36,956 bases of DNA, from the NCBI GenBank assembly GCA_027309555.1, contig DAIDCO010000017.1:1-36956 (forward strand). The letters run 5' to 3'. The notes under the pieces were generated by a model that was not told where the DNA came from, searched no databases, and worked only from the letters and a program-made list of their open reading frames with translations. This document shows positions 16,881-19,606 of this stretch, in pieces. Both the position numbers and the translations under genes were made by a program. Within the stretch, counting starts at the first letter, position 1; every line of letters begins with the position of its first letter. The DNA is from a bacterium (lineage in GTDB: Archaea; Thermoplasmatota; Thermoplasmata; Lutacidiplasmatales; UBA184).

Positions 16881-17933
16881 ATGCAAGCAGGCATCGTGAG
16901 CTACGGCGCGTACGTCCCGCGGTATCGGATCACCCCCGCCGAGATCGGTCGCGTCTGGGGCATCGACGGAGAGTCGATGGGCCAGGCCCTCAACGTCCAG
17001 CGGAAGAGCGTCCCGTCGCCGGACGAGGACACGATCACGATCTCGACGGAGTCGCTGCGAACCGCCCTCCTGCGCGGCGCGATCGACCCCCAGCAGATCG
17101 GGGCGCTCTACGTAGGGTCCGAGTCGCACCCCTACGCGGTCAAGCCGACGGCGACCGTCGTCGCCCAGGCGGTCGGCGCGACTCCGAACCTCACCGCCGC
17201 CGACTTCGAATTTGCCTGCAAGGCCGGCACGGCCGCGATCCAGACGTGCCTCGGGCTCGTGGGCGCCGAGATGATCCGCTACGGGGTCGCCATTGGGACC
17301 GACACCTCCCAGGGAGCCCCGGGCGACGCGCTCGAGTACTCTGCGAGCGCTGGCGGGGCGGCGTTCGTCATCGGCCGGGAGCGCGTGATCTGTCGCGTTC
17401 ATCGCACGGTTTCCTATACCACCGACACGCCGGACTTCTGGCGGCGGGAAGGCCAGAAGTACCCGAGCCACGGCGGCCGCTTCACCGGGGAGCCCGCTTA
17501 CTTCCGCCACGTGACCGAGTGCGCTCGGGCGCTGATGGAGGCCGTGGGATCGACCCCGAAGGACTACGCCCATGTCGTCTTCCATCAGCCGAACGGCAAG
17601 TTCCCGCAGCGGGTCGGAAAGACCCTCGGCTTCTCCGAGGCGCAGATGCGCTACGGGCTCGTGACCCCGTACATCGGAAACACCTACTCCGGGGCGGCGC
17701 TCATCGGGCTCGCGAACGTGCTCGACCACGCCGGGCCCGGCGAACGGATCCTCATGGTCGGCTACGGCTCGGGCGCCGGGTCGGACGCGTTCGACCTCGA
17801 GACGACCGAGGAGATCGCCCGCTTCGACCGGTCGTTCGGCCGTCCCGTGCAGTACTATCTCGACCACGGCGTCGAGCTCTCCTACGCGGTCTACGCGAAG
17901 TTCCGAGGCAAGATCCACATGGGAGGGGAGTGA
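16881..17933 (+). CDS. hydroxymethylglutaryl-CoA synthase
   Basis: Condenses acetyl-CoA with acetoacetyl-CoA to HMG-CoA, feeding the mevalonate route to archaeal ether lipids. The archaeal form is 350 aa. Catalytic residues look intact: Cys113 in [11 protein letters not shown], His235 in [10 protein letters not shown], and a Glu in [15 protein letters not shown]. The thiolase-fold C terminus has [17 protein letters not shown] and [11 protein letters not shown]. The ATG at 16881 follows a GAGG-type ribosome-binding site. It is second in the HTH-HMGS-thiolase-DUF35-DUF835 operon. In a methanogen, HMGS, thiolase and DUF35 are known to form a complex that channels acetoacetyl-CoA. Confidence 0.97.
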
Positions 17934-17935
17934 CG

Positions 17936-19105
17936 ATGCGCGAGGTGGCAGTCCTCGGGGTCGGGCAGACGAAGTTCGGCGAACTCTGGGACCGGTCGTT
18001 CCGCGAGATCGGGATCGAGGCGGGCCTCCAGTCGCTCGTCGACGCGAAGCTCTCCTCCGCCGACCTCGGCGCGCTGTTCCTCGGGAACATGGCGTCGGGC
18101 TCGCTCATCAGCCAGGAGCACATCGCGCCGCTCATCCTCGACTACGCGGGTCTCGCCGGACGCCACCTGCCGGCGGTGCGGGTCGAAGGCGGAGGCGCCT
18201 CGGGCGCGCTCGCGCTGCATCAGGGCTACCTCGCGGTGGCGAGCGGGCTGTATGATTACGTGGTCGTCGGCGGGGCCGAAAAGCTGACGGACGTGCCGGA
18301 CGCGACGGCCGCCGACATTTCGAGCTCGGCCGCGGACCACGAGTGGGAGGTCGTCTTCGGCGCGACCCTGCCCGCGCTCTGGGCCCTCATGGCCCGGCGG
18401 CACATGCATCTCTACGGTACGACCCGGGAACAGCTCGCCGCCGTTCCCGTCCACGCCCACGACATGGCCGGCAAGAACCCGAACGCCCACTATCGCAACA
18501 AGCTCACGATCGAGCAGGTCCTGGGCGCCGGGCCGGTCGCCGAGCCCCTCGGCGTGCTGGACTGCGCCCCGTTCTCGGACGGGGCCGCCGCGGTCGTGCT
18601 CGGGCCGCTCGAGGAGGCCCGCCGCCACACGGACACCCCGATCCGTATCGCCGCGAGCCAGGTCGCCTGCGACACGATCGCGCTCCAGAACCGTCAGGAG
18701 TTCACGACCCTCGAGTCGACGGTCGTCGCGGCCCGGCACGCCTTTGCGCAGGCGCGGCGGGCCCCCCGCGATGTCCGCGTCGCGGAGATCCACGATGCGT
18801 ACTCGATCAGCGCCCTCATGGCTCTCGAGGACCTCGGGTTCGTCGAGAAGGGGCGCGCCGGTGCCGAGTTCGCGAGCGGCCGCTTCGGAAGGGACGGTCC
18901 CCTGACGGTGAATCCGTCGGGCGGCCTCAAAGCCCAGGGCCGGCCGTTCGGCGCGGTCGGGGTCGCCCAGGTCGTCGAGATCGTCCGTCAGCTCCGGGGC
19001 GAGGCGAAGGATCGCCAGGTCGATGGCGCCTCGTTCGGCCTCGCCCACGACGTGGGCGGCACGGGAGCGACGAGCGTCGTCCACCTCTTGGAGCGGACGA
19101 ACTGA
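17936..19105 (+). CDS. SCP2-type thiolase homologue lacking key catalytic residues
   Basis: By position and overall sequence this is the acetyl-CoA acetyltransferase partner of HMG-CoA synthase (389 aa; N-terminal VGQTKFGELWDRSF, C-terminal NPSGGLKAQGRP and HDVGGTGAT). However, the nucleophilic Cys of the family motif VEAACASG is Gly87 here (VEGGGASG). The His of KGHPxGA is Arg336 (QGRPFGA), HDCF is HDAY, and THN is AHD. The HD of HDAY remains. It may therefore be a pseudoenzyme serving as scaffold for the HMGS/DUF35 complex, or catalyse something else. The ATG at 17936 lies 2 nt after the HMGS stop with a GGGAGGGGAG ribosome-binding site. The longer track ORF is shadow. Confidence 0.93.
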   Translation: MREVAVLGVGQTKFGELWDRSFREIGIEAGLQSLVDAKLSSADLGALFLGNMASGSLISQEHIAPLILDYAGLAGRHLPAVRVEGGGASGALALHQGYLAVASGLYDYVVVGGAEKLTDVPDATAADISSSAADHEWEVVFGATLPALWALMARRHMHLYGTTREQLAAVPVHAHDMAGKNPNAHYRNKLTIEQVLGAGPVAEPLGVLDCAPFSDGAAAVVLGPLEEARRHTDTPIRIAASQVACDTIALQNRQEFTTLESTVVAARHAFAQARRAPRDVRVAEIHDAYSISALMALEDLGFVEKGRAGAEFASGRFGRDGPLTVNPSGGLKAQGRPFGAVGVAQVVEIVRQLRGEAKDRQVDGASFGLAHDVGGTGATSVVHLLERTN

Positions 19106-19114
19106 GGGGAAACC

Positions 19115-19606
19115 ATGTCGATCGCACGTTTCTGGCGAGAGACCCCGCGACGCTACAACCTCGGTGGATCGAAGTGCACCAACTGCGGGACCGTCTACTT
19201 CCCGCCGCGTTCGGTCTGCCCGCAGTGCACGCACCACCGGCAATCGATCGAGAAGATGGTGCGCTCCCAGCTCTCGGGCGAAGGCGAAGTGCTCTCCTAC
19301 ACCGTCGTTCACGAGCCCGCGGAAGGTTTCGAGATGCAGGTCCCGTACGTACTGGCACTTGTGAAGACCCCCGAGGGCCCCGTGCTGACCGGACAGGTCG
19401 TCGACGTCCGGCCCGGGGAGGTACGGATCGGACTCAAGGTCCGGGCGACGTTCCGCAAGCTTCGGGAGGAAGGGAAGTCGGGCGTCATCCACTACGGCTA
19501 CAAGTTCTCGCCCGTCGAGGAGACGAACGGGGGGCTACCCGCCCGCGGTCCACCCGTCCCCGCGCCCGAGTCCCTCGAACGGCCTCGGAGCGCGGCGGGA
19601 GCGTGA
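19115..19606 (+). CDS. DUF35 zinc-ribbon/OB-fold protein of the HMG-CoA synthase complex
   Basis: A 163-aa protein with an N-terminal helix (SIARFWRETPRRYN), a rubredoxin-like zinc ribbon KCTNCGTVYFPPRSVCPQC with four cysteines (near 21-39), and an OB fold (about 50-130; GEGEVLSYTVVHEP, LTGQVVDVRPGEVRIG). DUF35 proteins bind CoA and link thiolase to HMG-CoA synthase in the archaeal complex. The last 35 or so residues are a Pro/Arg-rich tail. The ATG at 19115 is preceded by GAGGGG. Its stop overlaps the DUF835 start (GTGA). Confidence 0.94.
   Translation: MSIARFWRETPRRYNLGGSKCTNCGTVYFPPRSVCPQCTHHRQSIEKMVRSQLSGEGEVLSYTVVHEPAEGFEMQVPYVLALVKTPEGPVLTGQVVDVRPGEVRIGLKVRATFRKLREEGKSGVIHYGYKFSPVEETNGGLPARGPPVPAPESLERPRSAAGA

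Follow-up and report, generated by a model that had tools for sequence, protein, structure and literature searches.

The stretch of DNA that we analysed (the window, 36,956 nucleotides) carries three adjacent genes on its forward strand, which encode an archaeal-type HMG-CoA synthase (HMGCS), a thiolase-fold protein and a DUF35 protein (Table 1). The thiolase gene starts 2 bases past the HMGCS stop, encodes 389 amino acids on translation and is separated from the DUF35 start by 9 bases. A first-pass annotation had placed the thiolase between an intact HMGCS and DUF35, and this was borne out: Glu81, Cys113 and His235 of HMGCS are all intact, as are the zinc cysteines of DUF35, and the identities of both proteins are supported by NCBIfam, Pfam and PDB matches. 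The same annotation had reported that the thiolase has lost its nucleophilic Cys and the His of the GHP motif. On translation both changes were observed (Gly87, codon GGC; Arg336, codon CGG); the motif VEAACASG of its relatives is VEGGGASG in the window protein, and their KA(K/R)GHPxGATG is KAQGRPFGAVG. The further residue changes that it listed are all present, but the replacement of HN by HD is weak evidence when taken alone, because the solved complex reads ANVGG at this site.

Table 1. Features of the HMGCS operon in the window
Feature	Position	Strand	Support or remarks
Archaeal-type HMG-CoA synthase (HMGCS)	16881..17933	+	NCBIfam TIGR00748, 526 bits (cut-off 353); 6ESQ_I, E 5e-142
Thiolase-fold protein with neither catalytic Cys nor GHP His; putative pseudothiolase subunit of the HMGCS complex	17936..19105	+	AF2 model, best match 6ET9/6ESQ, TM 0.89
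Codon GGC, Gly87, site of the nucleophilic Cys (Cys85 of the Methanothermococcus thiolase)	18194..18196	+	Non-Cys in 148/197 genomes
Codon CAC, His286 (HDxF/Y motif), retained in the window; N/F/S/D/Y in some relatives	18791..18793	+	
Codon CGG, Arg336, site of the GHP catalytic His	18941..18943	+	R/Q/D/Y/N/C/F/A or H in Cys-less proteins
His371-Asp372; family HN to HD	19046..19051	+	Varies in active enzymes too; AN in 6ESQ
DUF35 bridging subunit (zinc ribbon and OB fold), four zinc Cys intact	19115..19606	+	Pfam PF01796 and PF12172; 6ESQ_E, E 3e-36

In a comparison with the PDB, the three window proteins matched three chains of one solved complex, the thiolase/HMGCS/DUF35 complex of Methanothermococcus thermolithotrophicus (6ESQ, 6ET9), which is encoded by the same three genes and contains the closest PDB matches of the window HMGCS and DUF35. 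The window thiolase is ∼48% identical to the thiolase of this complex (residues 1–386 aligned, phmmer E 5e-110), and its AlphaFold model, of modest confidence (pLDDT 72, pTM 0.80), has the same protein as its best Foldseek match (TM 0.89). However, the active Methanothermococcus homologue has Cys85 and the GHP/GHA His at the two sites where the window protein has neither. Another member of the same archaeal thiolase family, the acetyl-CoA acetyltransferase of Pyrococcus furiosus (7YVY, ∼40% identical), also keeps the Cys and the GHP His, unlike the window protein. Against the NCBIfam equivalog that represents the Methanothermococcus enzyme (NF053570), the window thiolase scored 504 bits, below the curated cut-off of 600. 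In gene position, sequence and fold it thus qualifies as an archaeal HMGCS-linked acetoacetyl-CoA thiolase, whereas in the Cys, the GHP/GHA His and the equivalog score it does not. Its named relatives, up to 88% identical, are Thermoplasmata metagenome-assembled genomes (MAGs), including Candidatus Lutacidiplasma silvani; a genome-based description of its order, Lutacidiplasmatales, is available (PMC9287336). A gene for HMG-CoA reductase was found in the window's genome, so that, judging by sequence, the organism uses the mevalonate route.

Two other thiolase-like genes without the Cys were seen in genome G000. One (contig C67, locus L082:1756-3054, minus strand; VESASGTGG, HDAF, GHP kept) is followed by a short DUF35 zinc-ribbon-like open reading frame, and the two are possibly a second pair with a pseudo- or altered thiolase. 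The other (contig C11, locus L083:2-1384, plus strand; IEWGGATGG, HDAY, CGHP) has as its best NCBIfam match PRK06365, 'thiolase domain-containing protein' (625 bits, cut-off 695).

Loss of the catalytic cysteine in Thermoplasmatota

We surveyed 197 Thermoplasmatota genomes with the operon, counting one operonic thiolase for each. Only 49 of these proteins keep the Cys; the other 148 (hereafter Cys-less) have Gly (97), Thr (17), Ser (16), Asp (14), Glu (3) or Ala (1) in its place. An alignment with related archaea, which the first-pass annotation had proposed as a check, put the window protein among its kin: the Cys is absent in 56 of the 56 surveyed genomes of the window's family, where Arg336 is conserved in 84% and Tyr289 in 96%, and it is likewise absent from the matching named Thermoplasmata MAGs in GenBank wherever that site is covered. 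Thr occupies the Cys site in genomes G174 and G171, which we suggest, as an assumption, to be Thermoplasma acidophilum and T. volcanium, and the Cys is kept in G075, presumably Aciduliprofundum boonei. Cys-less operonic thiolases are also found in two cultured archaea, Ferroplasma acidiphilum (G094; PMC5473848) and Cuniculiplasma divulgatum S5 (G168; PMC5155288). A sequencing or assembly error can be ruled out, as the loss is fixed in the family (>50 genomes) and occurs in finished genomes of cultured archaea; so can an oddity of one clade, as the loss is phylum-wide with several independent events. Beyond the phylum the comparison was limited to Methanobacteriales loci and PDB relatives, all of which have the Cys. 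We found no earlier report of Cys-less HMGCS-linked thiolases in Thermoplasmatota in the open-access literature, a search that did not cover the 2018 paper on the complex, which may already remark on them.

We built a tree of the operonic thiolases with the catalytic columns left out. It shows five changes of the Cys state, at least two of which are forced by well-supported branches. Since the Cys is present in the Methanobacteriales outgroup and in the nearest archaeal thiolases of solved structure, the changes are most simply losses. The GHP His is gone as well in 117 of the 148 Cys-less proteins. The remaining 31 have lost the Cys and kept this His, whereas only one protein shows the reverse combination, indicating that the Cys goes first. 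That single protein (G108:C20, locus L269, family f33), with the Cys present and GNP in place of GHP, is possibly at an early stage of loss.

Was the rest of the protein maintained? The first-pass annotation had described it as well conserved, and the data agree: the catalytic sites are relaxed and the remainder is under purifying selection. Positions 87, 336 and 289 belong to the sites that are >95% conserved in Cys-bearing proteins but released from this constraint in Cys-less ones. Still conserved in the latter are loops, e.g. NxSGGLK and GAxG, and E84, E115-K116, W137-E138, H175, R253, E284 and D287. In three close pairs we observed a dN/dS of ∼0.07 for the thiolase, compared with 0.03–0.07 for HMGCS; more distant pairs gave medians of 0.23 and 0.16, respectively, values that we consider too high because of synonymous saturation and base composition. 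Within the family, the median identity to the window is 88% for HMGCS, 81% for the thiolase and 69% for the AtoB-type thiolase discussed below. Pseudogene decay was ruled out by the low dN/dS of the close pairs and by the lack of in-frame stops in the surveyed genomes, apart from a single TAA, probably near the C-terminal stop, within the match in the f19 genomes G094, G144 and G179. With its catalytic residues lost, its fold and partner genes kept and its sequence under purifying selection, the window thiolase bears the marks of a pseudoenzyme subunit.

The partner genes were maintained too. The adjacent order HMGCS-thiolase-DUF35 was observed in all 197 genomes except at contig ends. In the Cys-less operons, the catalytic Glu/Cys/His/Asn of HMGCS are near invariant (one or two deviating rows of 144) and DUF35 retains most of its zinc ligands. 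An archaeal-type HMGCS without the operonic thiolase was never found: 24 genomes chosen for their lack of the operonic thiolase also lacked the archaeal-type HMGCS, and 16 of them had only a diverged HMGCS-like gene, ∼26–30% identical. Wherever the archaeal HMGCS was seen, a live or dead thiolase thus accompanied it. In families f36 and f42 and in genome G104 (loci L466-L481) the archaeal operon was not found and only the diverged HMGCS-like gene was present, with open frames of ∼520–600 codons in f36 and f42, which suggests that the whole operon was replaced there.

A separate AtoB-type thiolase

A search of the genome for a second thiolase with the Cys, also proposed by the first-pass annotation, succeeded. 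Contig C25 of the window's genome encodes a classical thiolase with Cys88, His350 and Cys380 (own numbering) that is closest to acetyl-CoA C-acetyltransferases in both PDB and NCBIfam, and three Cys-bearing archaeal-type paralogues are present as well. We counted a gene as AtoB-type if its Thiolase_N match had an E value of 1e-40 or lower, and observed one in 111 of the 116 Cys-less genomes checked, compared with 18 of the 49 Cys-bearing ones. It is absent from the other 31, including whole Cys-bearing families (e.g. Aciduliprofundum-like f15 and f27, f45, f48). The stand-alone AtoB-type thiolases have their Cys/His/Cys intact. This one-sided relation is as expected if an AtoB-type enzyme must precede the death of the operonic one. 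Fisher tests gave p = 6e-16 over genomes and 1.5e-4 over families; because a tree-based pair test had only 2–5 independent pairs and no power, these values must be read as uncorrected for kinship. The association rests on few independent events. The gene tree of the AtoB-type thiolases, which is unrooted, hints at more than one origin.

Five Cys-less genomes are without an AtoB-type gene, three of them 74–90% complete. In the other two, G262 and G268 (family f8, 96% complete), no other Thiolase_N match was found, which points either to a gap in the sequence or to acetoacetyl-CoA from elsewhere; the other sampled members of f8 do have another Cys thiolase. In many relatives of the same genus the AtoB-type gene lies on the same contig as the HMGCS operon, ∼28–40 kb away (e.g. 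G038:C22, G051:C44, G002:C2).

Possible roles of the Cys-less subunit

The probable explanation, which rests on sequence comparison, is that the operonic protein is a pseudothiolase kept for a CoA site that it would share with HMGCS and DUF35, acetoacetyl-CoA being supplied by the separate AtoB-type thiolase. It would still adopt the thiolase fold and sit in the complex, a physical assembly that we infer. We likewise infer that it is inactive as a thiolase: no acetyl-cysteine intermediate could form, and the protein would therefore be unable to make or break acetoacetyl-CoA. Its structural role is also an inference. In the 6ESQ complex, CoA lies at the interface of all three proteins (PMC6392133). 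Were the pocket used by the archaeal HMGCS built jointly in the same way, HMGCS would need the pseudothiolase for assembly and CoA binding, which is probably why it was retained. A precedent is PhlABC of Pseudomonas (5M3K), a homologous complex of three subunits. One of its thiolase-superfamily subunits, the HMGCS homologue PhlA, has Gly for Cys and is nevertheless required for assembly and for a working enzyme (PMC6392133). There, however, the HMGCS homologue is dead and the thiolase PhlC active, the reverse of what we propose for the window complex. Acetoacetyl-CoA, on the inferred route, would be made by the AtoB-type enzyme and reach HMGCS through solution, and direct channelling would be lost because the intermediate now comes from a separate thiolase. 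Historically, a stand-alone thiolase would have been present first and the operonic active site would have become dispensable; the Cys would then have been lost and the GHP His would have drifted, more than once.

This supports the suggestion of the first-pass annotation that the protein is a pseudoenzyme kept in the complex while acetoacetyl-CoA is made elsewhere, given the fixed loss, the intact adjacent partners and the co-occurrence with AtoB-type genes. For its phrase 'scaffold of the channelling complex', 'subunit of a composite CoA site' is the better wording, since without a working thiolase there would be nothing to channel from. Besides the five Cys-less genomes without an AtoB-type gene and the few independent events behind the association, other points count against the pseudothiolase explanation. 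Beta-oxidation is predicted in organisms of the window's family (PMC9287336), and the AtoB-type gene could serve it instead; and the conserved His286 and loop backbones could mean residual function.

A cysteine-free thiolase, in which another residue or a bound group replaces the Cys, perhaps with direct Claisen attack and no acyl-enzyme, would fit these mostly kept features (His286 and the oxyanion loop backbone) as well as the two f8 genomes without another Thiolase_N gene. With Gly, which cannot be a nucleophile, at position 87, the GHP base gone too in most Cys-less proteins and another Cys thiolase in nearly all Cys-less genomes, we regard it as very unlikely. Different chemistry on CoA esters without a nucleophilic Cys, by another thiolase-fold enzyme with DUF35 (a retro-aldolase like Ltp2/Sal, or a decarboxylase), had also been raised by the first-pass annotation. 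Ltp2-ChsH2 and Sal-Shy are, like the window protein, of thiolase fold, without the nucleophilic Cys and partnered by DUF35; Gly occupies the Cys site of CtSal, whose partner is a DUF35 domain (PMC12329534). The fold of the window protein matches Sal and Ltp2 too, though less well than 6ESQ, and the good conservation of Arg336 and Tyr289 within the window's family would suit a new function. However, the catalytic Tyr of the aldolase motif YDxF/Y is His286 in the window and is found in only two f6 proteins, and on this ground an Ltp2/Sal-type aldolase was rejected. Those enzymes act in steroid side-chain degradation without an HMGCS link, whereas the window gene stays strictly with HMGCS. Moreover, positions 87, 286 and 336 vary among the Cys-less proteins, and no new reactive residue fixed across them was found, which leaves different chemistry quite unlikely but not excluded.

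The near invariance of most glycine-rich loops and pocket-lining motifs, and the shared CoA site of the active relative (PMC6392133), would also agree with a regulatory or hand-over subunit, whose dead site binds acetoacetyl-CoA, acetyl-CoA or CoA and gates HMGCS or takes acetoacetyl-CoA docked from AtoB. There is no direct evidence for such a subunit and the composite CoA site needs fewer steps, so we hold it to be highly doubtful. A broader idea is that the dead thiolase has a working role of its own: its pocket would receive acetoacetyl-CoA that the AtoB enzyme delivers or brings by docking, or would act as a sensor of CoA esters, and by way of the shared CoA site it would gate HMGCS or hand substrate on to it. 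This seems to us unlikely; if true, the entry into the mevalonate pathway would be rewired in most Thermoplasmatota.

The archaeal thiolase/HMGCS complex is the textbook example of direct transfer, by which HMGCS pulls an unfavourable thiolase step. Should most Thermoplasmatota, the cultured Ferroplasma and Cuniculiplasma among them, carry a dead thiolase, channelling would be dispensable and the complex would be held together for another reason; the annotation of the operonic gene as an acetyl-CoA acetyltransferase would then be wrong for a large part of the phylum. The repeated loss of one active site would amount to a natural experiment on the reason for the complex, channelling or a shared cofactor site, with a bearing on the engineering of archaeal mevalonate modules. 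In most sampled Thermoplasmatota, the enzyme expected to make the first intermediate of membrane-lipid synthesis is without its catalytic residue, and a separate thiolase probably makes this intermediate.
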